NCBI RefSeq assembly: GCF_001975725.1
Contig: NZ_CP019434.1
Coordinates: 434,001-498,000 of the forward strand
Reading direction: 5' to 3'
DNA: 64,000 nucleotides
Origin: Acidihalobacter ferrooxydans
GTDB taxonomy: Bacteria; Pseudomonadota; Gammaproteobacteria; DSM-5130; Acidihalobacteraceae
This document shows, one piece after another, positions 11,845 through 32,334 of this stretch. How positions within the stretch are numbered: the first letter of the stretch is position 1; every line of letters starts with the position of its first letter. Under the pieces are notes generated by a model, which worked only from the letters and a program-made list of their open reading frames with translations, was not told the DNA's origin and did not search any database. Both the position numbers and the translations under genes were made by a program.

Positions 11845-14058
<2,214 letters not shown>

Positions 14059-16469: not shown

Positions 16470-19088
16470 TCAGCGGCGTTTGTGGCGAACGAGCAGATCG
16501 AGCAGCGCACGCCGTGGCAGTTTGCCGGTGGCGTTGCGCGGCAGCGCGTCAACCTTGAGCAGCGGGCGTGGCAGAAATGCCGGGTCGATCCCGCGGCCGA
16601 GTGCCTGCAGGATCTGCGCTGTGCCGAGTTGCGGCGCGACGACGGCAGCGGCCAGCCGGCTGCCCGGTTCCGAAACGAAGAAGGCACCGTCTTCCACGCC
16701 GTCGATGGCGAGCAGCCGTTGATTCAGATCGCCGAGCGTGGTGCGCTTGCCGGCGATATTGATCAATTCCCGCTTGCGGCCGCGCAGTTCGAAACGTCCA
16801 TTGGGCTGCACTTTGGCATAGTCGCCCATGAGCTGCGGGGCATTCAGATGCGGGCCGTCGATGCGCAACAGGCCGTGCTTGCCAAGGTCGGTGCGGATGC
16901 CGTCGAGGGGCGTCCAAAGGCGTTCTGCCGCGGGCCGGCGACTGGCGACAGCGCCGGTTTCGGTGCTGCCATAGATTTCGTACACAGGGCAGCCGAGCGC
17001 GATTTCGGCGCGCTCGGCGAGTTCGCCCCCGAGTGGTGCCGTAGAACAGATCACGAAGGCGAGTGGTGGCCAGTCGAGGCCGGCTTCTGTGCAGGCGCGC
17101 AGATGCAGTGGCGTGGTCAGCAAGACCCGCGCCGCATCCAGTTCGGCGAGTGCGGCGCGGATGTCGGCGGGATAGAACGGGCGGCCGCTGTGTACCACGC
17201 AGGGACCGAGCAGTGGATAGAGAATGCTGAATTCAAGGCCGAACATGTGCTGCGGCGGTACGGTGGCGACAAGCTGATGGCCGGTGCGGTCGAGGCCGAA
17301 GTGACGCATGCCGAGACGGATGCCTGCTGTGAGCCTCGCCCAGGTCTTGCGGTTGGCCTGCGCGGTACCGCTGGTGCCGGAGGTGAACAAGACGACTTCG
17401 GTGCGTGGGTCGATGGGGGCGCCAGGCTCGGCGGCATGTGTGCCCGGGGCGATTTGCACATGATGACGCAGAGCGCAACGTACATCGGGTTTCGGGTCGG
17501 ATAGCAGGCAGTAGGCGGCGTATTCGTCCGCTATTTCATCGATGACCTGTGGCGCCTGGCTGGGTGGCAGCAATACGGTCTGGCCGCGTAGCAGCAGGGC
17601 GGCGAAGCCGAGCATGAACAGGTATCGATCGTGGCTGAGGTTGAGCGCGCGGGCATGTTCGGGCAGCGCTCGCGCGAGCGCCTGGGCCTGATGCAGGAAT
17701 TGGCCGCGGCTTACTGCATGGCCGTGATACCACAGTAGCGGATCGTTTGCGTCGGCCATGTACGGTAGCAAGTGCATGTTGCGGCGAGGCGTCGCGAGCA
17801 GGGCCTCGACGCTTTGTCGGGTCAGTTTTCCGGTGGCATTGCGCGGCAAGGCGTCGACCTTGAGAAGTGGGCGTGGCAGGAACACCGGGTCAAGCACGCG
17901 GCGCAGTTCGCGCAGGATGTCGACCTCGCTGAGTTCGGGAGCGACAACCAGTGCGGCGAGACGATCGGGGTGGTTGCCGCCGGGGGCGATAAAGGCCGCG
18001 TCGCTGACGCCGGATATGGCGAGCAGGCGCTGGGTGAAATCCTGCAGCGAGCCGCGCTTGCCGGCGATGTTGACCATATCCGCATGGCGACCAAGCAGTT
18101 CGAAGCGCCCGTCGGCATGTACCTCGATAGCATCAGCCAGCGTTTGCTCGGTGTGCAGATAGGGCGCTTCGACTCGCGCCGGCTCGCCGGCGCAGATGCG
18201 AATATCATCGTAAGGTTGCCACAGCACGCCGTCCACGGTCCGTCGGCAGGCCAGTGCGCCCGTTTCGCTACAGCCATAAATTTCGTACACAGGGCAGCCG
18301 AACGTGCGTTCCGCGCGCCGCGCCAGATCCTCAGACAGCGGCGCGGTGGCGGAAATGACCCGATCGATTTGCGGCCACGCCAGGTCGGCTTCGGTGCACA
18401 CGCGCAGGTGGATCGGTGTGGTGACGAGCACCCGCGGCGTGTCGACCTCGACCAGTGCGGCGCGTACGTCTTCGGCATAAAACGGTTGTCCGGTTTGCGC
18501 CGTGCAGGCACTGAGCAACGCGTATAGCACGGTCGATTCGAGGCCGTAGGAATGTTGCGCCGGGACTGTCGCGACGAGCTGCACGGGCGCGCTGTCGAAG
18601 CCGAAACAGCGCAGTGCGACGGCTGTGCCTCCCACGAGCTGACCCCAGCTCTTGGCGGTTGGGGCGGGTTTGCCAGTGCTGCCCGAAGTGAATAGCACGG
18701 CGGCGGTATGTGCGCCCGCAATTGTGGGTGTGGCGGTAGAGGAGACGGCAGCGGATGTGGTGTAGTCGAGCACTCTCTGGGAGGCTTCGATGTCTGTCAT
18801 GGGCTGATCGGTAAGACAATAGGCAGCGTATTCAGAGGCGATTTCGTCGATGATCTGCGGTGCGTGACTCGGCGGTAGCAGATTGATCTGACCGCGTACC
18901 AACACAGCGCCGAATGCGACCATGAACCGGTAACGGTCGGTGCAGAGGTTGATGGCATGATGGCCGACGGGCAGACGCGCAGCGACCTGCATGACATGCG
19001 AGAGGTAGGTGGCGCGGCTGATCGGGCGTCCGTCTTGCCAGGCGATGGGCGTGTCCGGCTCGCCGACGATGAGCGGCAGACGGCTCAC
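16470..19088 (-). CDS. tandem double acyl/aryl-AMP ligase of the pigment cluster
   Basis: An 872-residue protein made of two complete ANL adenylation domains (about 1-435 and 438-872). Each has its own P-loop (TSGSTGK at 134-140; TSGTSGTAQ at 569-577), YG.SETG/YGSTETG motif, INIAGKR-type hinge and catalytic lysine (Lys421 and Lys856). The segment [17 protein letters not shown] is identical in both halves, which points to internal duplication. Aryl-polyene clusters normally carry a single such ligase to load the aromatic starter onto a carrier protein. The GTG start overlaps the stop of the upstream membrane-protein gene (GTGA). Confidence 0.85.
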
Positions 19089-19684
19089 GGTTGGAACATG
19101 CGCCGAAAATCGACGCGCGACAGGGCCTGCAGAGTCTCACGCAAACCGGCGGTGGGTTCGCCGCGCAGCACAATGTGACGCAGCGCGAACTCTGCGCCGA
19201 AAAATGCGCCAAGCAGCAGATAATTAATGAAGTTGGTGAACAGCGACCAGACTTCGAGTGGAGCGGCAACGGCCAGCATCGCGGAGAGCAACGCCAGGGC
19301 GAGGGAAAACCACATCCATGCCCAACTGACTCGCCGTGTATAGCGCAGCACGCGCGCCGAGCGGTGTGGGCGTACGTGCAGCGCGATGCGCGTAATGAGG
19401 TCCGTGCGGCCGGGCAGCAGGCCGCGCATGAAGAACAACGCGGCAGCCAGGTTGAGCGCGACTGGGGGCAGGAACAGCATGCCGTAGAGGCCCGCGAAAC
19501 GCAGCATAAGCAGGGTGGCGAGCACATAAAGAGCAAGGAACACCAGGCTGCTGCGATCACGGCGCACGATGGCCTGCACGAGGCTGAGCAGCAACAGCGC
19601 TGCGAGCGCTAGCACGGCGGGCAACGGATAACCGTAACTGACGCTCAGGTGTACTGTCAGCGCATAGCCCGCCAACAGGAGCAT
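19085..19684 (-). CDS. COG4648-type multi-spanning membrane protein
   Basis: A 199-residue inner-membrane protein with about five to six hydrophobic segments (PMLLLAGYALTVHLSV, AVLALAALLLLSLVQ, GMLFLPPVALNLAAALFF, FSLALALLSAMLAV). Such proteins often sit between the carrier protein and the AMP ligase in aryl-polyene clusters; the function is unknown. The start is uncertain: the first ATG clear of the carrier-protein gene is at 19684, with TTG at 19699 as an alternative. Confidence 0.65.
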   Translation of the reverse strand: MLLLAGYALTVHLSVSYGYPLPAVLALAALLLLSLVQAIVRRDRSSLVFLALYVLATLLMLRFAGLYGMLFLPPVALNLAAALFFMRGLLPGRTDLITRIALHVRPHRSARVLRYTRRVSWAWMWFSLALALLSAMLAVAAPLEVWSLFTNFINYLLLGAFFGAEFALRHIVLRGEPTAGLRETLQALSRVDFRRMFQP

Positions 19685-19715
19685 GGGCCAGAGCTTCAAC
19701 GCCTTGAACTCCAGT

Positions 19716-19985
19716 TCAATCGACCCGGTTCTGCTCAATATGCTGACTGAGGGACCGCAGTGAAGCGAAGACCTGACGGTTGTGTTCGTCGTCGGATTTG
19801 AGCTGGAAACCGTAACGTTTGGAGATAGCCAATGCGAGTTCCAGCGCGTCGATGGAGTCGAGCCCCAGACCATCGCGGAACAATGGTTCTTGCGGATCGA
19901 TATCTTCGGCGTTCAGGTCGTCAAGATTGAGTGCGTCGACGATGAGCTGAGCAACCTCACGTTCCTGCTCGGTCATTTCTGTCAT
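19716..19985 (-). CDS. acyl carrier protein 1 of the pigment cluster
   Basis: An 89-residue acyl carrier protein. The phosphopantetheine serine is Ser44 in GLGLDSIDALEL. The ATG at 19985 follows GAGGGA at good spacing; the frame is open far upstream but without protein-like sequence. It likely carries the aromatic starter or the growing polyene. It is the first gene of a minus-strand unit with the membrane protein and the AMP ligase. Confidence 0.88.
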   Translation of the reverse strand: MTEMTEQEREVAQLIVDALNLDDLNAEDIDPQEPLFRDGLGLDSIDALELALAISKRYGFQLKSDDEHNRQVFASLRSLSQHIEQNRVD

Positions 19986-20029
19986 GGTTTCCCTCATTGA
20001 GCGACAAAATAGGCTTGCATAGGGTAAAT

Positions 20030-20041
20030 CCGGATAATCCA
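20030..20041 (+). repeat. family 3 end fragment, left of the cupin gene
   Basis: The 12-mer ccggataatcca, which is the terminal sequence of the family 3 element at 50816-50985, occurs here and again at 20615-20626 in the same orientation. The two enclose 585 bp holding the cupin gene. The 19986-20290 gap otherwise shows only probable promoter sequence for the two divergent units. Confidence 0.5.
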
Positions 20042-20290
20042 CCAGGGGCGGCATCCTTGCTGGATCTTTGAATCCACCGATTGTTTCTTTACTCGGGCAT
20101 AGTGCGACCATGCCGCGCGCTGAGAAATCACCCGTGTGAATCCAAATCTCTGCGCAATCATCGCCTCGCCTAATGGAATATCTGGGGTAAACTGATATGC
20201 GGAAAATTCGCCGGAATCCTATCACAGCGTCCCACCATGCGGGTCGGATGCGTGGGCGGTGAGCTTGCGTGGTAAACATTCATTCGGATC

Positions 20291-20602
20291 ATGAAAATTT
20301 TTCGAGCCAGAGAATTTACGGCCAGCCGCCCTTGGGGAGCGCTCGATATCGCGACTATGAACGGTATCACTACGCGCCTGCACTGGACGAATCAACCGTA
20401 CGAATGGCACGTCAATGAGGGGCAAGAGGTGTTTGCAGTGCTTGATGGCCGTGTAGAGATGTACTGGCGTGAAGACGGCAAGCAGCAATCGGTTGTGCTC
20501 GAAACCGGCGATGTTTTTTATGCGTCTATCGGCACGGAGCATGTCGCCCATCCAATAGGTCAGGCACGTATCCTTGTCGTTGAGACTGCGGGAAGTGTCT
20601 GA
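20291..20602 (+). CDS. small single-domain cupin protein
   Basis: A 103-residue cupin. The first motif is around WHVNEGQEVFAVLDG and the second around LETGDVFYASIGTEHVAHP, with metal-ligand candidates His, Glu and His. Substrate and reaction are unknown. It is transcribed away from the carrier-protein gene and is flanked by direct 12-bp fragments of the family 3 repeat. It may be a sensor or isomerase-like accessory protein, but there is no direct evidence. Confidence 0.75.
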   Translation: MKIFRAREFTASRPWGALDIATMNGITTRLHWTNQPYEWHVNEGQEVFAVLDGRVEMYWREDGKQQSVVLETGDVFYASIGTEHVAHPIGQARILVVETAGSV

Positions 20603-20614
20603 CAGTTGTTCAAA

Positions 20615-20626
20615 CCGGATAATCCA
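20615..20626 (+). repeat. family 3 end fragment, right of the cupin gene
   Basis: Second direct copy of ccggataatcca, 12 bp after the cupin stop and immediately before the family 2 fragment. See the copy at 20030. Confidence 0.5.
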
Positions 20627-20631
20627 TAACA

Positions 20632-20708
20632 AGGCTGTCGTTGCTTAGGCGAGTGCGGAGAAGGATTGTCGGGCGAAAAAGCGCGGTTTACAGGGCGTTA
20701 ATGGACGC
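20632..20708 (+). repeat. family 2 element, partial copy
   Basis: Contains gggcgaaaaagcgcggttta and the surrounding gagtgcg-gagaagga and cagggcgttaatgg, closely matching the body of the complete family 2 element at 47876-48019. Only the left part is present and no paired right end was found. The gap up to 20850 should also hold the promoter of the DarA/DarB unit. Confidence 0.65.
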
Positions 20709-20850
20709 AAGAGTCCGATCTTTGATGGGGACAATAGTCGTTCTCAAGATGAAAAAGAGTATGTTATGAACCCATTATTCCATGACTACAGTCAATTTTT
20801 AACTGTTTAGGCAGTCACTTACGGCGCCTCTTAACGCTAGCGATCAATAC

Positions 20851-21801
20851 GTGTACAAAATTCTCGTCGTTTATTACTCCCAGTCAGGGCAATTGGAACG
20901 CGTCGCGCGCACAGTGGCTGCGCCGCTGGATGCAGCGCAGGACGTGCAGGTTGATTACCTGCGCCTCGAACCCGCGGTGGCGTATCCGTTCCCCTGGGGC
21001 TTGTTTTCCTTTCTCGACACATTTCCCGAAGCGGTCTATCTGGACGCGCCGCGACTGCGGCCGTTCGGCCTGGCGCCAGAGGCACGTTACGATGCGATCA
21101 TTCTGGCCTATACCGTGTGGTATCTTTCGCCGGCCCCGCCTATCACGGGCTTTCTGAAATCGCCCGAGGGTCGGCGCTTGCTGGCCGGGACACCGGTCGT
21201 CACCCTCACTGCCTGCCGTAACATGTGGCTGATGGCGCACGAGCAGATCAAGGCTTTACTGGCCGATGCCGGTGCGCGGCATTGCGACCATGTTGCCTTG
21301 GTCGATCAGGGCAACAGTCTGGCGACTTTCTTTACCACGCCGCGTTGGATGCTCACCGCACGCCAGGACCGCTGGCTGGGGCTGTTTCCGCCGGCCGGCG
21401 TCAGTGAGCGTGACATCGCCGGCAGCATCCGTTTCGGGCGTGCGCTGCTTGCCGCCGTGCGCGCCGGAACGCTCGACGGTACACAGGCGGTGCTGACCGG
21501 CCTCGGCGCGGCGCGCATGGACGTGCGTCTGCTCGCCAGCGAACGCATCGGTCGTCGCTCGTTTTTGATCTGGGGGCGATTGCTGCGCCGAGTCGGCCCC
21601 CCGCGTTCGGCACGCCGCAAACCCGTGTTGTTGATCTATGTGATGTTTCTGATCGGCATGATCATCGTGGTGGTGCCGCCGAGTATGCTCGTGCGCAGCC
21701 TGCTGCGATCCTTCCAAGGTGAACGTGTGGCCCGTGAACGCGCTTATTTCGAGGCACCGTCGGGGTCTGGCACCGAACGCATGGGTGAGTTTTCCGCATG
21801 A
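20851..21801 (+). CDS. DarA-like flavodoxin-fold protein (dialkylresorcinol pathway)
   Basis: A 316-residue protein with an N-terminal flavodoxin-like fold: the phosphate-binding loop YYSQSGQLERVA at about residues 8-20 and an Ile/Leu-Ala-Tyr-Thr-Val-Trp-Tyr loop near 90. A C-terminal membrane segment lies at about 265-285 (LLIYVMFLIGMIIVVV). Proteins like this are paired with DarB ketosynthases and are often labelled dialkylresorcinol condensing enzyme. GTG start at 20851. It overlaps the next gene by four bases, so the two are translationally coupled. Confidence 0.75.
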   Translation: MYKILVVYYSQSGQLERVARTVAAPLDAAQDVQVDYLRLEPAVAYPFPWGLFSFLDTFPEAVYLDAPRLRPFGLAPEARYDAIILAYTVWYLSPAPPITGFLKSPEGRRLLAGTPVVTLTACRNMWLMAHEQIKALLADAGARHCDHVALVDQGNSLATFFTTPRWMLTARQDRWLGLFPPAGVSERDIAGSIRFGRALLAAVRAGTLDGTQAVLTGLGAARMDVRLLASERIGRRSFLIWGRLLRRVGPPRSARRKPVLLIYVMFLIGMIIVVVPPSMLVRSLLRSFQGERVARERAYFEAPSGSGTERMGEFSA

Positions 21802-22958
21802 CACATCCGGTTTATATCAACCGCATCGCCGCCTTTTTGCCGGGCGAGCCGGTCGACAACGAGCATATGGAACAGGTGCTCGGGCAGGTCGGTGAACGCC
21901 CATCGCGCGCACGTCGCCTGGTGCTACGCCGCAACGGTATCCGGCAGCGTTACTACGTGCTCGATCCGCAGACCGGCGTACCCCGCTGGACGAACGCGGA
22001 ACTGACCGCCGAAGCCGTGCGTGGTCTGACCGGCACGGAGGTCGACCTCGCGGATATCGAAGTGCTGGCCTGCGGGACCACAATGGCTGATCAGCTTGCG
22101 CCGGGCCATGGGGTGATGGTGCATGGCGAGCTTGGTAACCCGGGCTGCGAGGTCGTGTCGCTGGCCGGGATTTGCGCCGCCGGTGTGGCCGCGCTCAAGT
22201 ACGCCTGGATGAGCGTGCTCAGTGGGCAGCATGGCAATGCGGTGGCGACCGGATCGGAGAACGCATCCACGCTCATGGCGGCGCGCAACTTTGCCACCGA
22301 AAACGCGGCGCGCGTGGCGGCGCTGGAGGAGCATCCGGAGATTGCCTTCGAGAAGGACTTCCTGCGCTGGATGCTATCCGACGGCGCTGGCGCCATGCTG
22401 TTGCAGGATCGCCCCAATGCAACCGGTTTATCGCTGCGCATCGACTGGATCGACATCCATTCCTATGCCGACCGTCTGCCGGTGTGCATGTATGCCGGCG
22501 GAGACAAGGATGCCGACGGCCGCTTCGTGCCCTGGCGCCATTATTCGTCGCTGGAAGCGGCGCTGGCGCAGTCCGCATTCGCTCTGAAGCAGGACGTACG
22601 CCTGCTCAACGATCAAGTGGTTGAGGTGAGCGCAGGACACGGCCTGCGCGATACCCTGACGCGCCATCCGTTGTCGGCGACAGAGATCGATTGGTTCCTG
22701 CCGCACTATTCCTCACAATTCTTCCGCCAACCGTTGTACGACAAGTTGGCCGAGTGCGGCCTGGAAATCCCCTTCGAGCGCTGGTTTACCAATCTGCCCG
22801 AGGTAGGCAATGTCGGCTCCGCTTCGCCCTATCTCATGCTTGAGGCGCTATTCAACGGCGCGGGCCGCTTGCGCGCCGGACAGCGAGTACTTTGTTATGT
22901 GCCAGAAAGTGGTCGGTTTTCTTCGGCCTTCATGCACTTCACGGTGGTAGAGGCATGA
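21798..22958 (+). CDS. DarB-like ketosynthase III
   Basis: FabH-fold condensing enzyme, 386 residues. The thiolase-fold triad is visible: Cys126 (LAGICAAGV), His303 (FLPHYSSQ) and Asn338 (VGNVGSAS). Homologous DarB enzymes join two beta-keto-acyl chains to form the ring of 2,5-dialkylresorcinols. In Bacteroidetes and some proteobacteria these become ester-linked to aryl polyenes as flexirubins. ATG overlaps the DarA-like stop; the next gene overlaps by ATGA. Confidence 0.85.
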   Translation: MTHPVYINRIAAFLPGEPVDNEHMEQVLGQVGERPSRARRLVLRRNGIRQRYYVLDPQTGVPRWTNAELTAEAVRGLTGTEVDLADIEVLACGTTMADQLAPGHGVMVHGELGNPGCEVVSLAGICAAGVAALKYAWMSVLSGQHGNAVATGSENASTLMAARNFATENAARVAALEEHPEIAFEKDFLRWMLSDGAGAMLLQDRPNATGLSLRIDWIDIHSYADRLPVCMYAGGDKDADGRFVPWRHYSSLEAALAQSAFALKQDVRLLNDQVVEVSAGHGLRDTLTRHPLSATEIDWFLPHYSSQFFRQPLYDKLAECGLEIPFERWFTNLPEVGNVGSASPYLMLEALFNGAGRLRAGQRVLCYVPESGRFSSAFMHFTVVEA

Positions 22959-23356
22959 AACGAGACGAGGTTCCGCAGTACCGCAACCGCGTGCTGGCTG
23001 GCGCGCGCAAGGCCGTTTACGCGGTGGATGAAAACGGTGAAATTGGTGCGGTGGCAAGCACTGGCTGGGAGGTGGAGGAGATAGTCACTACGCTTGCGCT
23101 GGACGATTTCCGCCTGCACGCCGATGAAGCTCTGGCACGCGCGCGTCGCGCAGAGACCTCGCCACTGGAATACCATATGTACGCGCAGCGCATGGACCTG
23201 CCGACACTGGCACAGAGCGTCGGTCTGCAGCGCTGGCGAGTGCGCCGGCACCTGCGCTCGCGCACATTCGCGCGGCTCTCGCCAGCGCTGCTGCGGCGCT
23301 ATGCCGAGGCCTTGGGCATCAGCGTCGACGCTTTGCGTCGACTGCCGGGACAGTGA
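22955..23356 (+). CDS. small protein with C-terminal helix-turn-helix
   Basis: A 133-residue protein of the dialkylresorcinol-like unit. The C-terminal half (MDLPTLAQSVGLQRWRVRRH and FARLSPALLRRYAEALGI) looks like a Cro/XRE helix-turn-helix. The N-terminal half has no recognised domain. It overlaps the ketosynthase gene by four bases and the next gene by GTGA, so it is made with the biosynthetic proteins. It may be a regulator or an accessory protein; the sequence does not decide. Confidence 0.65.
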   Translation: MKRDEVPQYRNRVLAGARKAVYAVDENGEIGAVASTGWEVEEIVTTLALDDFRLHADEALARARRAETSPLEYHMYAQRMDLPTLAQSVGLQRWRVRRHLRSRTFARLSPALLRRYAEALGISVDALRRLPGQ

Positions 23357-24363
23357 GCATGCAGGTCGAAGGTTACCAGCACCGCCACGCCGGCCACTGC
23401 GAAAGCGGCGTCATGTCTGCGCTGCTGAGCCACCAAGGGCTTGAGCTCAGCGAACCGTTGGCTTTCGGTTTGTCTTCTGCCTTGGTATTCGCGCATTTTC
23501 CGTTCGTCCGCGTGGGTGGCGTGCCGCTGACTTCGTACCGCATGCCACCCGGCCACATCATCAAAGGTCTGGAGCGCAGCCTGGGCGTACGCATTACCCG
23601 CCGCCGCTATCGTGATCCCGCGCGCGGCATGCGCGAACTCGACGAACTGCTCGATGCGGGGCGGCCCGTGGGCTTACAGACTTCGGTGTACTGGCTGCCC
23701 TATTTCCCGCCGGACATGCGGTTTCACTTTAACGCGCATAACCTCATCATCTTCGGCCGCGAGGGCGACGACTATCTGGTCAGCGATCCGGTGGTCGAAC
23801 ATCCGCAACGCATCGCGCGAGCCGACCTGGAGAAGGCGCGGTTTGTGCGCGGTCCGTTCGCCCCGCGCGGCCTGATTTATTTCCCGACCGACGTGCCGCA
23901 GTCGGTCGATCTGACGCATGCGGTACCCAGGGCGATCCGCCGCACGCTGAATATCAATACTCGCCTGCCCCTGCCAGTGGTCGGTTTGCCGGCGATCCGC
24001 CGCATGGCGAAAACCCTGCGCGAGATGCCGCGCCGCCATCCCGACCCGCGCTACCAACGCCTGTACGTGGGCAGTATCGTTCGCATGCAGGAGGAAATCG
24101 GCACCGGTGGTGGGGGGTTTCGCTTCATCCAGGGCGCATTTTTGCAGCAAGCCGGGCATGCCTTGGGCGACGAACGTTTGCATGCTGCGGCCGAGGCTAT
24201 GATCGCGGCCGGCGATCAGTGGCGGCAGTTCGCGTTGAGAGGGGCGCGGCTCGTCAAGGCGAAGCAGCCGACGGCGCAGGGATTTGCGGAGCTGGCCGAC
24301 GAGTTGCTTGCCTGTGCCGAGGTCGAGCGCAAGGCATTCGAGGCCTTGCGCTCGACGCTATAA
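23353..24363 (+). CDS. BtrH-type acyltransferase
   Basis: A 336-residue protein with the BtrH N-terminal signature: HCESG at residues 15-19 with Cys16 as likely nucleophile, then SEPLAFGLSSALVFAHF and a downstream NAHNLIIFGREGDDYLVSDP. BtrH moves an acyl side chain from a carrier protein to an acceptor in butirosin synthesis. Here it could esterify the resorcinol with the aryl-polyene chain, which is inference. The start is GTG 23353 (GTGA overlap) or ATG 23359. It ends 13 bp from the convergent secreted-protein gene. Confidence 0.75.
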   Translation: MSMQVEGYQHRHAGHCESGVMSALLSHQGLELSEPLAFGLSSALVFAHFPFVRVGGVPLTSYRMPPGHIIKGLERSLGVRITRRRYRDPARGMRELDELLDAGRPVGLQTSVYWLPYFPPDMRFHFNAHNLIIFGREGDDYLVSDPVVEHPQRIARADLEKARFVRGPFAPRGLIYFPTDVPQSVDLTHAVPRAIRRTLNINTRLPLPVVGLPAIRRMAKTLREMPRRHPDPRYQRLYVGSIVRMQEEIGTGGGGFRFIQGAFLQQAGHALGDERLHAAAEAMIAAGDQWRQFALRGARLVKAKQPTAQGFAELADELLACAEVERKAFEALRSTL

Positions 24364-24376
24364 GCTCACCCCGGCC

Positions 24377-25105
24377 TCAGTAGCCGGAGGCGTTCGGGTT
24401 CAGGTGCACTTCCTTCACGCGCATGCCCGAGGTGTACGCGCTGGTGTTGGAGAAGGTGACGCTGCCCTGACCCTTGTACTTGAATTGGGTGCGGTAATCG
24501 TCGTTGCCCTTGAAATGAAAGGGAATCCACGCCTTGCCTGTCTGGTAACTGTGTGAGGAGGTTGGCGGGCCGCACAGAGCTTCGACCTCCTGCATCGACA
24601 TGCCGGGTTTTACCACGCTGATGGGTTTGTAGTTGCCGCGGGGCACCGGAGTTTGGGCTGTGCGCGGATTCTGTGCGGATTGGGCCGGGGTGATCGCGCC
24701 ATTGGGGTATTGCTCGCCGGCCGGGCCGCCCAGATCGGATGCTCCGCGACCACAGTACTTGCGCAATTTGCCGTTGAGCTGACCGTTATCGGCGATGTTT
24801 TTCATCAGGGTGTAATAGCGTTTCTGACCGCTGATACCGAGCGCCTTACAGCCCCAGGATAGTGCATCGACGTAGGTGCGCCCTTGTTCGTGTTTGTGCT
24901 GCAGTATGATGCCCGCCAGCGTGTCCAGCACCGCAGGCGCGGCACCGCGCTGATGGTAGATGTTTTCCGCTGCGGAGCGGATTTGCACCGGGTTGCCGCT
25001 GCGCAAGAGTTGAATGTTGTATTCGGCGCCGGCCGACAGCGCCGCGGAAGCTGAGCCCAGCCAAACGGCGGCGAGAAGTCCGATAATGAACGTGAAAAAT
25101 TTCAT
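24377..25105 (-). CDS. secreted protein with BamE/SmpA-like C-terminal domain
   Basis: A 242-residue precursor. The signal peptide is MKFFTFIIGLLAAVWLGSASA. The middle is low in known features. The C-terminal region (KPGMSMQEVEALCGPP, then FKYKGQGSVTFSN) has the shape of small BamE/SmpA-like outer-membrane-associated domains. No lipobox cysteine is seen. Its function is unknown. It lies between the convergent BtrH-type gene and the truncated ketosynthase-like gene. Confidence 0.65.
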   Translation of the reverse strand: MKFFTFIIGLLAAVWLGSASAALSAGAEYNIQLLRSGNPVQIRSAAENIYHQRGAAPAVLDTLAGIILQHKHEQGRTYVDALSWGCKALGISGQKRYYTLMKNIADNGQLNGKLRKYCGRGASDLGGPAGEQYPNGAITPAQSAQNPRTAQTPVPRGNYKPISVVKPGMSMQEVEALCGPPTSSHSYQTGKAWIPFHFKGNDDYRTQFKYKGQGSVTFSNTSAYTSGMRVKEVHLNPNASGY

Positions 25106-25196
25106 GCCTGAATTCCCCTGAGTGATTATTAGATATGTGACGATGGCGACATTAGCACACCGAACGCGGTTGTTTCATGCGTATTCACGATAAATT

Positions 25197-26066
25197 TCAC
25201 GTACGGCTGATCTGTATAGCCTGCCAGCCGGCCGTGGTTTTGCCGAGCAGCGCGAAAGGCCGCTCCAGTCGCGTAAGAGCGGCGCACAGGGTCTGCATCT
25301 CGGCGCTTGCGTAATAGCCGTTCGCGGCCGTGGTCGGTGTCCAGATGGGATGGTCGCGCGGGGCGAGTGCGTGGACGAGTTCGCTGTCCTCGGGTGTCGC
25401 CGGGACGAGGGCCTGCGTCGGCGGCAAGGTTCGAAGCCAGGCTTCGAGTGCGGGTCTTGCCGCGAGGCGGACTACCGCATTGATGACGCCGAGCGGCACG
25501 GTGGCGGTCTGGTCGACCGCCAGCCAGTGGCTGCCTTCGCCCAGTGGCGTGTCTGCGGCGATTTGCAGCCGTTCGCGATGCCTGTCCAGCGGCCAGCAGC
25601 ATTCGTCGACCGCACCGATCATTGCCTGGGCCAGGCGCCCGGACCCTGCGTCGGCCAGGGCGAGTTCCAGCGCCGCGCCGAGCGCGGAGTCGCGCCGCGA
25701 CACGGTCAGGTTTGAACCATTGAGCCCAAGCGCGGCGGCAATCTGAAATCCGGCGACGTTGCTTGACACGTTGATGAAGGCGAACGGCATTGGCGCTTCG
25801 CCGAGGCGGTAAAGACCTTCGAGTACAGCGGCGGTATCAGCGACGTTGCCCGCACCGGTGGCGAGATAGAGCGCGCTACCGGCATCCAGTGGCGCGGCGA
25901 GCATGGCGGTCGCAAGGCGGGCGCCGAGCAGGGCGAGTTGGGTGAAGCGACTGCTGCGCCGTGGCGCTTTGAGGCCAAGTCCGGCATACAGCGGGTCGAG
26001 CGGCGTCGGCGCACCGCCGGCGGCCAGCGCAATGCCGCCGGCGGCCACGATACGCAAACCGGTCAT
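25197..26066 (-). CDS. ketosynthase-like protein without catalytic cysteine (chain-length-factor type)
   Basis: A 289-residue truncated ketosynthase-like protein. The nucleophile position reads INVSSNVAGF, without cysteine, and the second half of a normal ketosynthase is shortened. In type II polyketide and aryl-polyene systems such partners pair with an active ketosynthase and set chain length. Its ATG overlaps the stop of the active ketosynthase gene (ATGA), which supports an obligate heterodimer. Confidence 0.75.
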   Translation of the reverse strand: MTGLRIVAAGGIALAAGGAPTPLDPLYAGLGLKAPRRSSRFTQLALLGARLATAMLAAPLDAGSALYLATGAGNVADTAAVLEGLYRLGEAPMPFAFINVSSNVAGFQIAAALGLNGSNLTVSRRDSALGAALELALADAGSGRLAQAMIGAVDECCWPLDRHRERLQIAADTPLGEGSHWLAVDQTATVPLGVINAVVRLAARPALEAWLRTLPPTQALVPATPEDSELVHALAPRDHPIWTPTTAANGYYASAEMQTLCAALTRLERPFALLGKTTAGWQAIQISRT

Positions 26067-27214
26067 GCCGCGCGCTCCACGACAAGCACGCTGTTGTTGC
26101 CCCCGAAGCCGAAATAGTTCAGCAGATACAGGCCGTGCGGTGCGGGTGCGGGTGTGGTCAGCGGCTGCGCGCCGAGTTCTGGATCGGGCGTGTTGAAGCC
26201 GACCGTGGCGGGCATGCGCCGGTCAGCGAGGGTGCGCATGAACAGCACGGTTTCGATCAGGCCGCAGGCGCCCAGCGTGTGGCCGAGTTGAGGTTTGATT
26301 GAGGTCAATGGCGGCAGGGTGCGGCCGAACACGCGGCGCAGACCGAGCGCCTCGGCCTGGTCGTTGCTCGGTGTGCCGGTGCCGTGCGCCTTGATGCCGC
26401 GTACCGCGTCGTGCGTGGCGCCGGCATCGGCCAGTGCTGCGTGCACCGTGGCGGCAATGTGTTCTGGCGTGGTGTAGGTGGTGCTGGTGGTATCGCAGGC
26501 AGTGGCGCCGCCGCGCAGGCGCAGCCCGTCCAGTGGGCCATGATCGCTGTCGCGGCCGAGGACGGCGGCGGCGACGGCTTCGCCGAGCACCAGTCCTTGT
26601 CGGTGCAGGTCGAAAGGACGTGTGGTTTTTTCAGCGTACAGCATCAGGGAATGGAAGCCGTAGCAGGACAGGCCGTTGTGGACTTCGCTGCCGATGACCA
26701 GCGCGTGATCGAGCGTGCCGGCACCGATCAGGCGCTGCGCGTAGAGCAGCGCGTTGGCAGCCGACGAGCAGGCGGTATTGAATGTGTAGGTCGGTCCCTT
26801 CAGACCGTGGCGTGCGGCGAGACGGGCAGCAAGATTGCCGTAGCCGGCTAGCGGCAGGGGATTGGCGCTCGCCTCGTTGGTGAGCGCATGCCGATAACGC
26901 GCTTCGGAAACGCTGATGTCCATCGAACTGCTGGCGAGAAAAATGCCCGTGCGGGCGCGTGCGGCCGGTGACAGGTCGGCGGTGTCGAGTGCCGCGGCAA
27001 CCGCGCTGTCGAGCAGGTGATAAAGGCGTTCGCGGGGCGGCAGTTCGACGCCGACAATCGGCAGATAGGGCAGACGCAGGGGTGAGTGCAGCGCATCGAG
27101 TTCCAGCGTGACGAGCGGTTGATGGCCGGCCAGCAGCGCCGCGGCAGCGGTGTCGAGGTCATCGCCCAGGGCGCAGTGCAGACCGGTGCCGAGAATGGAT
27201 GTGGCGTCATTCAC
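26063..27214 (-). CDS. FabF-type ketosynthase of the aryl-polyene pathway (1)
   Basis: A 383-residue condensing enzyme. The triad is Cys149 (FNTACSSAAN), His277 (KAHGTGTPSND) and His312 (PQLGHTLGACG), so it should be active. It extends the carrier-bound chain with malonyl units. It overlaps both the carrier-protein gene upstream and the cysteine-less partner downstream by four bases each. Confidence 0.9.
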   Translation of the reverse strand: MNDATSILGTGLHCALGDDLDTAAAALLAGHQPLVTLELDALHSPLRLPYLPIVGVELPPRERLYHLLDSAVAAALDTADLSPAARARTGIFLASSSMDISVSEARYRHALTNEASANPLPLAGYGNLAARLAARHGLKGPTYTFNTACSSAANALLYAQRLIGAGTLDHALVIGSEVHNGLSCYGFHSLMLYAEKTTRPFDLHRQGLVLGEAVAAAVLGRDSDHGPLDGLRLRGGATACDTTSTTYTTPEHIAATVHAALADAGATHDAVRGIKAHGTGTPSNDQAEALGLRRVFGRTLPPLTSIKPQLGHTLGACGLIETVLFMRTLADRRMPATVGFNTPDPELGAQPLTTPAPAPHGLYLLNYFGFGGNNSVLVVERAA

Positions 27215-27474
27215 TGCGCTTCGAGGTAGGCGGCCAGGGCGTCGATCGAGGTCAGGATGCGGCGCAGTTGCTTGGGATCCGCGATGCGGATGCCGTAGCG
27301 TTTTTGCAGCGCCATGGAGATCTGCAGGCCGTCGAGAGAGTCGAGGTCGAGCGCTGATTCAGGACCGAACAAGGGCGCGTCGTCGGGCAGTGCCGAGGGT
27401 TCGATATCGCGGTCGCACTCGTCGACGATCAGGCGTTTGAGTTCGAGTTTGAGAGTGTCGCGGTCGATTGTCAT
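27211..27474 (-). CDS. acyl carrier protein 2 of the pigment cluster
   Basis: An 87-residue carrier protein with phosphopantetheine Ser46 in LDLDSLDGLQIS. It overlaps the ketosynthase gene. Together with carrier protein 1 it gives the cluster two distinct acyl carriers, perhaps one for the starter and one for elongation. A family 1 repeat lies just upstream. Confidence 0.9.
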   Translation of the reverse strand: MTIDRDTLKLELKRLIVDECDRDIEPSALPDDAPLFGPESALDLDSLDGLQISMALQKRYGIRIADPKQLRRILTSIDALAAYLEAQ

Positions 27475-27554
27475 GGGTATTCGGGCGGCAGCGTCTGGCG
27501 GTCAGCGCAATGTCGGCAGTGTAACAAACTGCACCGGTCCAGCGATCTGCTGCC

Positions 27555-27716
27555 AGGAGCCTGTCGGACTTGGAAAGAATCGACTGCGGCGATGGGATAA
27601 TGGGCCCACAACCCGCTCTTTTTCGTCGAATAGAACCACTCGTCCTGAAAAGAGCGGGAAACCGGGCTCCATTCCCCTCTCGCCTCGCTTCGATCCTCCA
27701 AGTCCGACAGGCTCCT
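27555..27716 (+). repeat. family 1 inverted-repeat element, copy 2 (long form)
   Basis: A 162-bp element with perfect 20-bp terminal inverted repeats (aggagcctgtcggacttgga and its complement). Compared with the ~100-bp copies it carries about 60 extra bases (about 27610-27669) that themselves form an 11-bp hairpin (cccgctctttt at 27612, aaaagagcggg at 27648). Its right end contains two bases of the TAG stop of the ABC permease gene. Confidence 0.85.
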
Positions 27717-28923
27717 AGCGATCGGCACGGCGCATCGAGGCGGCGGCGAGGAGCAGACAGATCAGGCCGAACAGCGTGAGTTTGCCGGCATCGGGCAGCA
27801 CGGCTGTCCAGCTTTCGTCGCGCAGGATAATGTCGAGGAAACCGTTCAACGCCCAGGCCATCGGCGAGAAGCCGGCGACCTGCTGCATGAACGGTGTCAT
27901 CACGGCCGTGGGTACCATCACGCCGCCGATGGCGCCGAGGGCAAGGTTGGCGACGCCGCCGAAAGTAGTGGCCTGGATGCTGGTGCGGGCGATGGCGGCG
28001 ATCAGCAGGGCGAAACCGATGGCGGCGAAGCTGGTGGCCGAGCCAATCAGGAACAGGCCGAACGGCGCATGGCCAAGATTGAGAGTGTTGCCGCCGAGCA
28101 GCGGCACCACCCATACGCCGACCGCGAGCATTGCGAGCATCTGGCCGAGATTGATCAGGTAATACGGCGGCACCCGTGCGAGCATCACGGTCAGCGCGGG
28201 GATACCCAGCGAGCGCAGGCGCAGCAGGCTGCCCTGCTGGCGTTCGACGATCAGCGCAGTGGACAGCGGGATGACCACGAAGAACATGGCGAACACCAGC
28301 CAGGCCGGTACGCTCTGTTGCACGGCGTTGGGCATGCGCGCCTCGACGCCGTGGCCGGCGACAACTTCAGTCACGGGAATGTGCAGCATGCCGCCACTTG
28401 TGCCGGGCGGGCCACCGAGCAGTCGAGCGACCAGTTGCCGACCTTCCAGTGAGGCGAGCAGCGCGGTGACGCTGACGCGGAACAGCGCGCGCGCCTGCGG
28501 CAGCGCGGTGGGAGCGTAGTACAGCGTGACCAGGCCGGCGGTGTCCGGTTTGGCGTGGACATCGCCAATGCTGGATTCCACGCGGCGGCCGAAATCAGCG
28601 GGAATGAGCAGGCCGAACTGCGGGGTCCCGGCACGCAGGCGGCGCTGTAGTTCGGCAGCGGCGTCGGCGCCGGTGAGCAGCGTCGGGCGCAGTTTGCCGA
28701 CGGCGCGCATCTGCGCGAGCAGGGTTTTGGCCAGCGGTCCGCCGTCGTGGTCGATCACCAGCACGCTTTGCAGCGTGTCGTTGTGCTCGGCGATGGGCGC
28801 GCGCAGCACCAGCGACATGATGCAGATGAAAATCGCCGGCATCAGGAACAGCACCAGCAGGCCGTGGCGGTCGCGGCCGAGTACGCGCAGTTCCTTGAGG
28901 ACGAGAGCAAGCAGCGTGTCCAT
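27715..28923 (-). CDS. ABC-2 type exporter permease
   Basis: A 402-residue YhhJ/YbhR-like permease. One N-terminal membrane segment (LLVLFLMPAIFICIMSLVL) is followed by a large periplasmic region (about 45-190) and five C-terminal segments. The start at 28923 shares one base with the ATPase stop. The TAG stop overlaps the end of the family 1 repeat, so the last codons may have been set by that insertion. It probably exports a pigment intermediate or an outer-envelope lipid, which is inferred from location. Confidence 0.85.
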   Translation of the reverse strand: MDTLLALVLKELRVLGRDRHGLLVLFLMPAIFICIMSLVLRAPIAEHNDTLQSVLVIDHDGGPLAKTLLAQMRAVGKLRPTLLTGADAAAELQRRLRAGTPQFGLLIPADFGRRVESSIGDVHAKPDTAGLVTLYYAPTALPQARALFRVSVTALLASLEGRQLVARLLGGPPGTSGGMLHIPVTEVVAGHGVEARMPNAVQQSVPAWLVFAMFFVVIPLSTALIVERQQGSLLRLRSLGIPALTVMLARVPPYYLINLGQMLAMLAVGVWVVPLLGGNTLNLGHAPFGLFLIGSATSFAAIGFALLIAAIARTSIQATTFGGVANLALGAIGGVMVPTAVMTPFMQQVAGFSPMAWALNGFLDIILRDESWTAVLPDAGKLTLFGLICLLLAAASMRRADR

Positions 28924-29843
28924 CAGTCCCTCAGTTCGCGGCGGGTCAGGTGCAGGAACAATGCTTCGAGCGTGGCGCAGCCGTAACGCGCACAGCGCAG
29001 GCGCACGCGGCTGCCGGTCAGCGTGTGCTCCAGCATGCGCAGTGCGTCGCCTGGATGCTGTGTGTCGATCCACAAACGTTGTGCGTCGACGAAGTGCGCG
29101 GCGCAGGCGGTTTCGATCCGCTGACGCAAAGCGCTGTCCGGTGCCGGGTCGAGGTCGGCGTGCAGGCTGTTGTTGGCTGTGCCGCTGAGCAGTTCGCCAA
29201 TCTCTCCGGCGCAGAGAATACGGCCGTGGTCGATGATGGCGACTTGGCGGCAGAGTTGCTCGACTTCTTCCATGTAGTGCGAAGCGTAGATCAGCGTCAT
29301 GCCTGCGGCGTTGAGTTGGCGCAGGGTGTCGAGGATGAAGTTGCGCGATTGGGGGTCGATGCCGACGGTGGGCTCGTCGAGCACCAGTACGCGCGGCTTG
29401 CCGAGCAGACCGATGGCCAGGTTGAGGCGCCGCTTGAGCCCGCCGGAGAGGTGTTCTGCCGGCTGGTCCATGTGCTGCTGGAGCTTGGTGGTGGCGGCGG
29501 CCCAGGCGATGCGCGACGTGCGTTCGGCACGCGGTACGCGCGTTGCGGCGGCGTAGAAATCCAGGTTCGCGCGCACGCTTAGCGTCGGATAAAAGGCCAG
29601 TTCCTGAGGCACCAGGGCGATATCGCTCGGGTCGCGTGTCGCGAGCGGGCGGTCGCCGATGCGTACGTCGCCGCTGTCCGCGGCAAGGATGCCGGTGAGG
29701 ATGTGCAGCAGCGTGGTCTTGCCGGCGCCGTTCGGGCCGAGCAAGCCGAACAGCGCGCCGGCGGCAATATTCAGGTCGATGCCGTCAAGCGCCCGTTGCC
29801 GCGTGTTGCGGTAGGTCTTGCCGATGCCGGAGAGACGGATCAT
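28923..29843 (-). CDS. ABC exporter ATP-binding protein
   Basis: A 306-residue ATPase paired with the ABC-2 permease. Walker A is LGPNGAGKTT, the signature is LSGGLKRRL, Walker B is VLVLDEPTVGID and the H-loop is in YASHYMEE. The C-terminal 80 residues form the DrrA-like extension. The ATG at 29843 overlaps the stop of the glycosyltransferase gene; the longer upstream reading lies within that gene. Confidence 0.9.
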   Translation of the reverse strand: MIRLSGIGKTYRNTRQRALDGIDLNIAAGALFGLLGPNGAGKTTLLHILTGILAADSGDVRIGDRPLATRDPSDIALVPQELAFYPTLSVRANLDFYAAATRVPRAERTSRIAWAAATTKLQQHMDQPAEHLSGGLKRRLNLAIGLLGKPRVLVLDEPTVGIDPQSRNFILDTLRQLNAAGMTLIYASHYMEEVEQLCRQVAIIDHGRILCAGEIGELLSGTANNSLHADLDPAPDSALRQRIETACAAHFVDAQRLWIDTQHPGDALRMLEHTLTGSRVRLRCARYGCATLEALFLHLTRRELRD

Positions 29844-30673
29844 GAGGAGGCGGTGGGCAGATCGCGCGCGTCGACCGTGTGCGGGCGACGGCGCCACAGG
29901 CGGCTGAGCGCGACCGGCAGGCCGAGCGGGTTCATGCCGCGGCGCAGCAGTTGCCCGGCGACGTAGACCACGATGCGCCATGTGTCGTAATGGCGGTAGT
30001 GACTGGGGCGCTGGCCGGCGAAGTAGCGGGTATCAATGTCCAGATAGAGGAATGGTACGTTGCAGTGCGCGGCGCGGATCAGCAGGGCAGTCTCGAAGGT
30101 GAAGCCGTCGCGTCGCGGTGGAGCGGCCGGCAGCGGGTCGAGAAAGCGTGCCGGGTAGACACGAAAGCCGCTTTGCGAGTCGTGGATCAGGCGGCCGGCG
30201 GCCCAGCTGATCCAGAAGTCGGCGATCAGGTTGGCCATGCGGCGGATGCCGGGCGAAAGTTCGCGGCGGCGCGTGCGTGCGGCGATCAGCAGTGCGCCGG
30301 GGCGGCGGGCGTGCAGTGCCAGCAGGCGGGGGAGATCTTCGGGGCGGTGCTGACCGTCGCCGTCGAGTGTGACCACTGCGCCGGCGCCCTGAGCGAGTGC
30401 GTGCGCGAAGCCGGTGAGCAGGGTCTGGGCTTTGCCGGCGTTGCGTTCGTGACGCAGAAGGGTGACGCCGTCCAGGTCCGCAAGTGCGGCGGCGGTGCCG
30501 TCTTGCGAGCCGTCGTCGACCACGATCACGCAGTCGAGATGCGCACGCACACCGATGATCACTTCGCGGATAGTGGCTGCTTCGTTGTAGGCCGGGATGA
30601 CGGCGCAGACGCCCGGACGCTTCGACACGCCGTCCACGCGACCCGATTGCAGCGCTGGGGCGCGCTCGCTCAT
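29840..30673 (-). CDS. family 2 glycosyltransferase of the pigment cluster
   Basis: A 277-residue GT-A fold enzyme. It has AVIPAYNEAATI at the N-terminus, VVDDGSQDGTAA, and the metal-binding TLDGDGQH. No strong membrane segments follow, so it is likely soluble or peripheral. GT2 enzymes occur in aryl-polyene and xanthomonadin clusters, where the polyene head group is thought to be glycosylated. The adjacent UDP-glucose dehydrogenase raises the chance that the donor is UDP-glucuronate. Confidence 0.88.
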   Translation of the reverse strand: MSERAPALQSGRVDGVSKRPGVCAVIPAYNEAATIREVIIGVRAHLDCVIVVDDGSQDGTAAALADLDGVTLLRHERNAGKAQTLLTGFAHALAQGAGAVVTLDGDGQHRPEDLPRLLALHARRPGALLIAARTRRRELSPGIRRMANLIADFWISWAAGRLIHDSQSGFRVYPARFLDPLPAAPPRRDGFTFETALLIRAAHCNVPFLYLDIDTRYFAGQRPSHYRHYDTWRIVVYVAGQLLRRGMNPLGLPVALSRLWRRRPHTVDARDLPTASS

Positions 30674-31128
30674 GCGGCGGTGTCCTCGGCGAGGTGGGCA
30701 ATGGTGAACTGGCCGCTGGCGAGCGGCGTGTCGGCGTGTGCGACCGTGAAAGCGTAAACCCAGCCGCCGTCGCCGGCGAACAGGCGTTGGGCATCGATCT
30801 CCAGTGCGCCGGGCAGTGAGTTCAATGGGGTTGCGGGCAGTTGCAGACGGCGGGTGGCGACCAGATAGCCGCGGCGGGGCGGCGCACCGTCGGCAGCGGC
30901 CAGCAGGCCGCCGTGGATAGCCGCGGCCTGCGCAGCGTATTCAAGCAGATGGGCTGCGCCGAGCGTACCGTCGGCGCGGCGCAGCGGATTGTCGGGCGCA
31001 CGGTGGCTGGTACTGCGGCAGCGGATACTCGCGGCATCCCAGGCGAGCACTGCATCGAGCAGGCACATGTCGCCGGCATGCGGAATCAGGGCGCACAGGG
31101 CGGTTTTGTCGATGGGTGCGTGGAACAT
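30670..31128 (-). CDS. hotdog-fold 3-hydroxyacyl-ACP dehydratase (ApeP-like)
   Basis: A 152-residue FabA/FabZ-like protein. The conserved IPHAGDMCLLD carries the likely catalytic His17, and AAHLLEYAAQAAAIHGG forms the central helix. In aryl-polyene synthesis a dehydratase works with the ketosynthase to leave each new double bond conjugated. It overlaps the glycosyltransferase gene by ATGA and lies 14 bp after the UDP-glucose dehydrogenase gene. Confidence 0.82.
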   Translation of the reverse strand: MFHAPIDKTALCALIPHAGDMCLLDAVLAWDAASIRCRSTSHRAPDNPLRRADGTLGAAHLLEYAAQAAAIHGGLLAAADGAPPRRGYLVATRRLQLPATPLNSLPGALEIDAQRLFAGDGGWVYAFTVAHADTPLASGQFTIAHLAEDTAA

Positions 31129-31142
31129 GCCGGTTGACGCGC

Positions 31143-32309
31143 TCAGTCGTGCCCGAACAGGTCGCGGCTGTAGACCTTGTCGGCCACATCGCGGATTTCA
31201 TCGGTGATGCGGTTGGCGACGATGACGTCCGCCAGCGATTTAAACTCGGCCAGGTCGTTGATCACTCTAGAGTTGAAGAATTCGTCCGCTTCGAGCACCG
31301 GTTCGTAAACGATCACTTCGATGCCCTTGGCCTTGATGCGTTTCATGATGCCCTGAATGCTCGATGCCCGGAAGTTGTCCGAGCCGGCCTTCATGATGAG
31401 GCGGTGCACGCCGACGATCCCGGGCTGGCGCGCGATGATTTCGTCGGCGACGAAGTCCTTGCGCGTGGTGTTGGAGTCGACGATGGCGCGGATCAGGGTC
31501 TGCGGTACGTCGCGGTAGTTGGCCAATAACTGTTTGGTGTCCTTGGGCAGGCAGTAACCGCCGTAGCCGAACGAGGGGTTGTTGTAGTGGTTGCCGATGC
31601 GTGGGTCCAGCGAAACGCCGTCGATGATCTGTTTGGTGTCGAGGCCGTGCCGGGCGGCGTAGGTGTCCAGTTCGTTGAAATAGGCGACGCGCATGGCGAG
31701 GTAGGTGTTGGCGAACAGTTTGATTGCTTCGGCTTCGGTCGCGTCGGTGAACAGGGTTGGGATGTCTTGTTTGATGGCGCCCTGGCGGAGCAGGCCGGCG
31801 AAGGTTTCGGCGCGCCGGGAGCGTTCGCCGATGACGATGCGCGAGGGGTGCAGGTTGTCGTGCAGCGCCTGGCCTTCGCGCAGAAATTCGGGCGAGAAGA
31901 GGATGTTGTCGCAGCCGAGCTCCGCTTTGATCATGGCCGTGTAGCCGACCGGCACGGTCGATTTGATAACCATCACTGCCTGGGGATTGATCGCCATGAC
32001 GTCGCGGATCACCGCCTCGACCGAGTCGGTGTTGAAGTAATTGGTCACCGGGTCGTAGTCGGTTGGCGTGGCGATGATCACGTAGGCGGCGCCGGCATAG
32101 GCTTCATGTTTGTCCAACGTGGCGAGGAAGTTCAGCGGTTTGTGCCGCAGGTAGTCCTCGACCTCGGCGTCGACGATGGGTGATTCCTTGCGGTTGAGCA
32201 TCGCCACCTTCTCGGGCACGATGTCGAGCGCGATAACTTCGTTGTGCTGCGCCAGCAAAATGGCATTGGACAGGCCGACGTAGCCGGTGCCGGCGATGGC
32301 GATTTTCAT
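31143..32309 (-). CDS. ugd: UDP-glucose 6-dehydrogenase
   Basis: Makes UDP-glucuronate from UDP-glucose and two NAD+. The 388 residues match the short E. coli-type enzyme. The Rossmann motif GTGYVGLSN is at the N-terminus, and the catalytic nucleophile is Cys253 in [11 protein letters not shown]. It sits between the dehydratase and a chain-length-factor gene, in the same direction and with gaps of 14 and 25 bp. It therefore looks like part of the operon, although standard aryl-polyene clusters do not carry it. Confidence 0.95.
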
Positions 32310-32334
32310 GGTCGTGCTTCCTTCGGAATGCGAT

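Follow-up and report, generated by a model that had tools for sequence, protein, structure and literature searches.

Which enzyme joins a dialkylresorcinol (DAR) to an aryl polyene? The ester bond between the two is the defining feature of the flexirubins, long-standing markers in bacterial taxonomy, and of arcuflavin, and no enzyme making it has been demonstrated in the open-licence PubMed Central literature searched. The question is raised by a unit of four genes, darA, darB, darG and darH, in a stretch of 64,000 nucleotides of Acidihalobacter ferrooxydans (contig NZ_CP019434.1, positions 434001-498000, or G000:C1:434001-498000 in our numbering, of a one-contig genome of 3,448,835 bp), referred to here as the window. 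The four genes probably constitute the front half of a DAR cassette that belongs to a xanthomonadin-type aryl-polyene/DAR pathway of the arcuflavin/flexirubin kind, in which DarH would acylate the resorcinol with the carrier-bound polyene. They are the following:

20851-21801, plus strand: darA-like gene (DAR aromatase by homology and position), GTG start
21798-22958, plus strand: darB, ketosynthase of the StlD/DarB family (NF005293)
22955-23356, plus strand: darG (NCBIfam name), 133 amino acids (NF053536)
23353-24363, plus strand: darH (NCBIfam name), acyltransferase with BtrH_N and DUF4872 domains (NF053550, Pfam), start at GTG 23353 or ATG 23359

Composition and conservation of the four-gene unit

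DarB scores over the cut-off of the StlD/DarB model NF005293 (575.4 bits against 450) and under that of the narrower resorcinol_DarB model NF053539 (490.7 bits against 550). DarH passes its model NF053550 (452 bits against 300) and contains the Pfam domains BtrH_N (PF14399, E 1e-47) and DUF4872 (E 2.2e-45), and DarG passes the DarG_fam model NF053536 (154.2 bits against 70). For DarA there was no Pfam match and no passing model (a flavodoxin match was weak, E 0.0046); its name is based on homology to the DarA proteins of relatives, Photorhabdus loci included, and on its place beside DarB. In a plasmid search, DarA-like proteins of about 32% identity were found on three Streptomyces plasmids, and DarH-like matches occurred in 69 plasmid records, none of them spanning 80% of DarH.

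NCBIfam already holds the names DarG_fam and "BtrH-related acyltransferase DarH", and the order darA-darB-(unknown)-BtrH-like gene is already known, so that novelty of the order was ruled out by an earlier table for Azoarcus sp. BH72 (PMC3949708). That table lists darA (azo0293), darB (azo0292), darD (azo0291, conserved hypothetical) and darE (azo0290, BtrH-like peptidase), and further darF (ABC ATPase), darG and darH (PHD and PilT), darI (permease), darC (acyl carrier protein, ACP), darJ (ketosynthase) and darK. By position, DarG and DarH of NCBIfam correspond to darD and darE of Azoarcus, not to the darG and darH of that paper.

Gene neighbourhoods were compared for 80 DarB loci, the best 80 of at least 584 relatives of the window's DarB, and the set consequently over-represents the window's clade. 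DarA, DarB, DarG and DarH are all present at 72 of these (the complete loci), seven lack both DarG and DarH, and in one (L092) DarG is at the locus and DarH lies on a separate contig. The four genes stand in order on one strand in 69 of the 72 complete loci, the exceptions being L028, where darG and darH lie on the opposite strand, L061, where this is the case for the DarA match, and a third locus.

The first-pass annotation had described the genes as overlapping by four bases each, and on the plus strand at the coordinates listed above this is borne out. An ATGA is shared by darA and darB (21798-21801) and by darB and darG (22955-22958), and a GTGA by darG and darH (23353-23356) provided that darH starts at GTG 23353; the alternative start, ATG 23359, gives a gap of 2 nucleotides (nt) in place of the third overlap. 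Overlaps of 4 nt are commonplace in bacterial operons. Among the relatives, a start that allows one is found at 7 of 77 same-strand darA/darB junctions, 7 of 72 darB/darG junctions and 49 of 72 darG/darH junctions, and all three together in none of the 72 complete loci, from which it follows that the coupling of darG and darH is the conserved part and that the triple overlap was seen in the window alone.

DarH resembles carrier-protein-dependent acyltransferases

An AlphaFold2 model of DarH built on 33 sequences (predicted local distance difference test, pLDDT, 92.8; predicted TM-score 0.90) matched several solved structures over its full length, the best being a chain of the AziU3/U2 complex (Z 24.9, 306 residues, root-mean-square deviation (rmsd) 4.0), followed by CtaG (Z 24.2, 293 residues, rmsd 3.2) and by CcbD, solved with a peptidyl carrier protein (Z 22.6, 306 residues, rmsd 4.2). 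Overall, the full-length matches to these three proteins had Z scores of 22.3-24.9 over 292-307 residues, at an identity in the structure alignments of 10-11% to CtaG and 16% to CcbD. A sequence search of the PDB with DarG and DarH, singly and as profiles, returned no match that we regard as a relative (best E 0.0016-1, designed helical proteins included).

CtaG was solved as the variants C11A, H128A and D144N, which point to its active-site residues, and its His-Asp spacing of 16 (H128-D144) is that of H129 and D145 in DarH. Cys16, His129 and Asp145 of DarH are invariant in 68 of 68 sequences, and from the spacing His129 would be the catalytic histidine. The 68 sequences used for conservation and identity are those of the window and of 67 of the 72 complete loci; left out were L066 and L096, whose DarH runs into a contig end, L075, with a truncated DarA, L095, whose DarA is split in two, and L084, in which the four genes are apparently complete. 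In this set the pairwise distances of DarA, DarB, DarG and DarH correlate at 0.945-0.970, as expected of any co-inherited genes.

With its BtrH_N domain and Cys-His-Asp/Glu triad, DarH belongs to the papain-like acyltransferases of the BtrH/CcbD type. BtrH of butirosin biosynthesis, with which it shares the BtrH_N domain, is described as an acyl carrier protein:aminoglycoside acyltransferase related to C39 (PMC10318531), and its family has been proposed to act on acyl-ACPs as transacylases, freeing the acyl group or transesterifying it (PMC2922099). CcbD (celesticetin) and CtaG (closthioamide) share with DarH the full-length fold, the Cys-His-Asp/Glu triad and, on the reading favoured here, an acyl donor bound to a carrier protein; CcbD is reported to act by a ping-pong mechanism with a Cys-His-Glu triad and a carrier-protein-bound acyl donor (PMC12945683), and CtaG is reported to transfer a peptidyl group from one carrier protein to another (PMC6772006). 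All three enzymes acylate amines, whereas DarH would acylate a phenol. The predicted fold and the invariant residues were obtained directly; the acyl donor, the acceptor and the type of bond we infer.

Association with aryl-polyene genes

In a wider sample of 398 genomes of the phylum, with matches counted at the curated cut-offs, DarB, DarG and DarH were each found in 13 genomes, the same 13 every time. The aryl-polyene marker PF13723 was present in 91 of the 398, namely in all 13 carriers and in 78 of the 385 others (Fisher p 2.3e-9, shared ancestry ignored). DarG and DarH lie within 50 bp of each other in 11 of the 13 carriers, and at about 1 kb (G011) and about 5 kb (G272) in the remaining two. 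Matches under the cut-off were left uncounted: DarH in G078, G114 and G193, DarG in G368 (with internal stops), and DarB at 302-398 bits in seven further genomes and in a second copy in G379.

A similar picture emerged from the DarB loci, where PF13723 was searched for in the genomes of 49 of the 80 (all eight without DarG or DarH at the locus and 41 picked by hand). It was found in 42 of 42 genomes with DarG, and thus in every genome searched that has both DarG and DarH, and in three of the seven genomes without DarG and DarH. The seven negatives, in which both genes are also missing genome-wide, are Brenneria, a Helicobacteraceae metagenome-assembled genome (MAG), two Pseudomonas, the MAG Deltapro3 and two Photorhabdus; those with the marker are the two Pseudomonas and Brenneria, which implies that a polyene does not entail DarG and DarH. 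Neither DarH nor DarG was found in any of 14 named control genomes, one of which (Bacteroides ihuae) has PF13723. The proposal of the first-pass annotation that a BtrH-type acyltransferase makes the ester between resorcinol and aryl polyene, to be checked by a gene-neighbourhood search, is in this way indirectly supported: the search was run, the unit is not found predominantly in the absence of aryl-polyene genes, PF13723 being present in all 13 carriers, and the fold is that of carrier-protein-dependent acyltransferases.

The free-DAR operons of Pseudomonas chlororaphis and Photorhabdus share darA and darB with the window; unlike the window, the two Photorhabdus and the two Pseudomonas loci have no DarG or DarH. 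P. chlororaphis is reported to make the resorcinol HPR via darABC under the AraC-type regulators DarS and DarR, and the alkylresorcinols of Photorhabdus have been proposed as signal molecules (PMC6403133); the two Pseudomonas negatives may be producers of the HPR type. Two other DarB-like genes stand apart, one in Brenneria (L036), with no DarA match in the locus and beside ribonucleotide reductase genes, and one in the Helicobacteraceae MAG (L071), near a sodium:solute symporter gene and with no DarA match in a locus of which only 0.8 kb upstream is covered. The lack of a DarA is what might be expected for enzymes of the StlD type. Among 37 genomes, the window's own and 36 relatives, DarB passes the cut-off only in the window's own, so that the cluster is patchy among relatives.

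A proposed route to the ester

In the pathway that we consider probable, DarB would join two fatty-acid-derived chains and DarA would aromatise the product to a 2,5-dialkylresorcinol, as described in the literature on their homologues. Cys16 of DarH would accept the completed aryl polyene from the polyene's carrier protein, His129, held by Asp145, would activate a phenolic hydroxyl of the resorcinol, and the activated hydroxyl would attack the thioester to give the ester. DarG, a small protein of predicted helix-turn-helix (HTH) fold and the companion of DarH in the genomes searched, would be either a regulator of the pathway or a helper of DarH.

Several points weigh against this assignment of DarH. 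No deletion or enzyme assay of a darH homologue was found in the open-licence PubMed Central literature, and CcbD and CtaG form amide bonds, not phenol esters. The reaction of AziU3/U2, the top fold match, is one that we take not to be acyl transfer, and the fold of DarH alone is therefore no proof of its chemistry. PF13723 stands in for aryl-polyene clusters and does not prove that one is present, and it was adopted in place of a first marker, LolA_3 (PF19574), after the result with the latter was known; LolA_3 matched in 37 of the 49 genomes (36 over the cut-off) and its association is weaker, with 34 of the 42 genomes with DarG (33 over the cut-off) against three of the seven without. PF13723 is within 30 kb of darH in six of the 13 carriers but not in the other seven (one at 73 kb, one at 1.2 Mb and five on other contigs), which shows that the cassette and the polyene genes are separable and that it is the resorcinol genes which DarG and DarH accompany. 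DarB passes the cut-off in one of the 14 controls (Caulobacter vibrioides or Bacteroides ihuae) that has no DarG or DarH, so that DarB need not be accompanied by this DarG/DarH pair, perhaps even where there is a polyene, an exception to any strict rule; such a genome might produce its resorcinol in free form, or else use a coupling enzyme that is divergent or of another kind. The co-occurrence would also fit a role of DarH in export or protection of free resorcinol. Finally, for the flexirubin of Chitinophaga the ligase-like FlxW has been suggested as the coupling enzyme (PMC3992019).

DarG: regulator or partner of DarH

The AlphaFold2 model of DarG (mean pLDDT 85, with a confident stretch at about residues 50-130) predicts an N-terminal hairpin followed by an HTH domain of the XRE/lambda-repressor type at about residues 62-133. 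Fold matches of this type had Z scores of 8.0-9.6 over 61-86 residues (rmsd 1.7-3.3), the best being NGO0477 (Z 9.6), DdrO (8.7) and SinR (8.4), and the HTH portions of two enzymes, HppE and HEPD, matched nearly as well (Z 8.2). For a small helical domain a Z of 8-9 is suggestive, not decisive, and may reflect a common helical arrangement; the best Foldseek match had an E of 0.0086, none reaching 0.001 or below. Pfam gave marginal HTH matches on 35 DarG members, with HTH_26 in seven of the 35 (best E 0.0068). The arginine-rich helix 93-99, in the recognition position, ranks first in conservation among nine segments (mean 0.85, with 0.53-0.71 for the others), with W94 in 67 of 68, R98 in 67 of 68 and H99 in 68 of 68 sequences. 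The claim that an HTH protein sits amid the unit is supported at the level of the predicted fold.

Between a regulator of the pathway and a helper of DarH we lean slightly towards the former. That DarG is a DNA-binding autoregulator which would give the unit its own regulation is a tentative reading, a little short of an even chance. The predicted fold, the arginine-rich helix and the HTH_26 matches argue for it; against it stand the conservation of helix 93-99 across phyla, the similar fold borne by HppE and HEPD, and the upstream regions of darA, for in 39 non-redundant regions no operator-like dyad was common above shuffles, a search that covered exact dyads with arms of 4 or 5 bases. The strong words of a k-mer search upstream of darA were those of a Pseudomonas extended -10-like element, TGGCATAAT, which lies 36-53 bp upstream of the called darA start in 34 loci, 33 of them from Pseudomonas or Stutzerimonas (L029-L035, L037-L048, L052-L054, L056, L063, L064, L067, L073, L074, L079, L080, L083, L087, L089 and L101); it is absent from the 250 bases before darA of the window. 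Rather unlikely is that DarG is not a regulator and instead a repressor-fold working partner of DarH, its arginine-rich helix gripping the acidic polyene carrier protein, so that DarG and DarH would together make up a bipartite phenol-ester synthase and represent an O-acylating branch within the BtrH/CcbD enzymes.

Other roles for DarH

DarH might act earlier in the pathway, for instance in acyl delivery to or from DarB or the cassette ACP, with another enzyme making the ester. Since an ACP, a ketosynthase and a ketosynthase-like protein belong to the cassette itself, there may be a carrier-bound substrate besides the polyene, and enzymes with the BtrH fold are not bound to one acyl group, CcbD accepting fatty acyl groups (PMC12945683). 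Against this, the Photorhabdus loci have darA, darB and a small ACP-like open reading frame and no DarH genome-wide, expression of darB and darA of C. pinensis is reported to have yielded DAR (PMC3992019), and the DAR proteins of Azoarcus in E. coli likewise (PMC3949708). DarH is accordingly probably dispensable for DAR itself, and an early-acting DarH is improbable. About as improbable is that DarH and the adjacent ABC transporter serve export, with the C39-like domain processing or recognising cargo, since the matches of residues ~1-181 to C39 peptidase domains of ABC transporters (Z about 13), those of residues ~5-181 to C39 peptidases and their kin (Z about 13.5) and the presence of the ABC ATPase and permease genes in 65 of the 72 complete loci are outweighed by the far stronger, full-length matches to CtaG, AziU3/U2 and CcbD and by the conservation of the C-terminal DUF4872 part as well.

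Gene context and comparison with known clusters

The unit is followed convergently by homologues of the other cassette genes and by polyene genes, and is preceded by an Arc-like trio, as follows:

16470-19088, minus strand: ArcT-like tandem AMP-ligase, 872 amino acids, two similar adenylation units in one protein
19085-19873, minus strand: ArcU-like gene
19716-20279, minus strand: ArcV-like ACP
24377-25105, minus strand: weakly BamE-like protein, 13 bases past darH, convergent
25197-26066, minus strand: darK-like gene, ketosynthase-like without evident active-site cysteine (our own reading), no Pfam or NCBIfam match, homologue in 48 of 72 loci
26063-27214, minus strand: darJ-like ketosynthase, motif TACSS, N- and C-terminal Pfam ketoacyl-synt domains, homologue in 59 of 72 loci
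27211-27474, minus strand: darC-like ACP (PP-binding), homologue in 64 of 72 loci
27715-29073, minus strand: darI-like ABC-2 permease (ABC2_membrane_3), true start probably further inside
28923-29981, minus strand: darF-like ABC ATPase (ABC_tran), true start probably further inside
29840-42060, minus strand: xanthomonadin-type aryl-polyene genes (glycosyltransferase, ApeP-like, ketosynthases, MMPL, LolA-like, LipA-type acyltransferase, MipA, chorismatase, halogenase)

The region is of the xanthomonadin-type aryl-polyene kind described for arcuflavin. The first-pass annotation had suggested that the set on the opposite strand from the polyene genes could be a separately regulated module. The strands are indeed opposite, with the four genes on the plus and the polyene genes on the minus strand; the unit is not self-contained, however, as the ABC transporter, ACP, ketosynthase and ketosynthase-like homologues sit convergently at 25197-29981 and run into the polyene genes. 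Nor was separate regulation supported: apart from the missing common dyad in relatives, a promoter and terminator scan of 20000-25200 gave counts at shuffle level, with one promoter-like element (minus strand) against a shuffle mean of 1.8. The four genes as a complete module were ruled out by the cassette partners that accompany the unit in the complete loci, where these are oriented against darH in 40 of 72 (the window's own arrangement), run in the same direction in 27 and were not found in the flank in five; both ABC genes are present in 55 of the 56 loci whose sequence extends 6 kb or more beyond darH. The DAR module is thus larger than four genes, with probable homologues of darF, darI, darC, darJ and darK on the polyene strand.

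Some features of the region stand beside this argument. The darK and darJ homologues (25197-27214, minus strand) resemble, in our own reading, a chain-length-factor/ketosynthase pair. The ArcT/ArcU/ArcV-like trio recurs in a locus of an Azoarcus MAG (L085). A UDP-glucose/GDP-mannose dehydrogenase gene (31143-32309, minus strand) lies within the polyene cluster near the glycosyltransferase gene and perhaps hints at a sugar-decorated pigment. At 11875-14058 (plus strand) a katG (catalase-peroxidase) frame is split by one in-frame stop into halves at 11875-12957 and 12964-14058.

With the order darA-darB-unknown-BtrH and polyene genes in the genome, the window's cluster is by gene content of the arcuflavin type. 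The arcuflavin DAR cluster of Azoarcus sp. BH72 (azo0283-azo0293) has the same order, both clusters have equivalents of the ABC ATPase, ABC permease, ACP, ketosynthase and darK, and both genomes have xanthomonadin-type polyene genes with chorismatase and halogenase. The window differs in that the second half of its cassette is convergent with the first and adjoins the polyene genes, that there is no room for a PHD/PilT pair between the ABC genes, and that each of its three junctions is, as called, a 4-nt overlap. In Azoarcus an ester linkage between aryl polyene and DAR was predicted from mass spectrometry, and the first part of the Results and the Discussion of that paper do not assign the coupling to the BtrH-like gene (PMC3949708). 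In the flexirubin clusters of Bacteroidetes the DAR is likewise described as esterified with an aryl polyene (PMC3992019), and a flexirubin_DarG model exists in NCBIfam (NF053545); DarG of the window falls under its cut-off (116.2 bits against 170), and the window has a chorismatase gene where in Chitinophaga the pathway starts with a tyrosine ammonia-lyase.

Implications

Three lines of evidence point to DarH, for which putative catalytic residues can be named, as the candidate for the ester bond: its co-occurrence with polyene markers, the natural negatives and a predicted fold like that of CcbD and CtaG. DarG is flagged as a companion of DarH that calls for explanation. If the assignment is true, the papain-fold family, of which BtrH, CcbD and CtaG are amide makers, would also make phenol esters.

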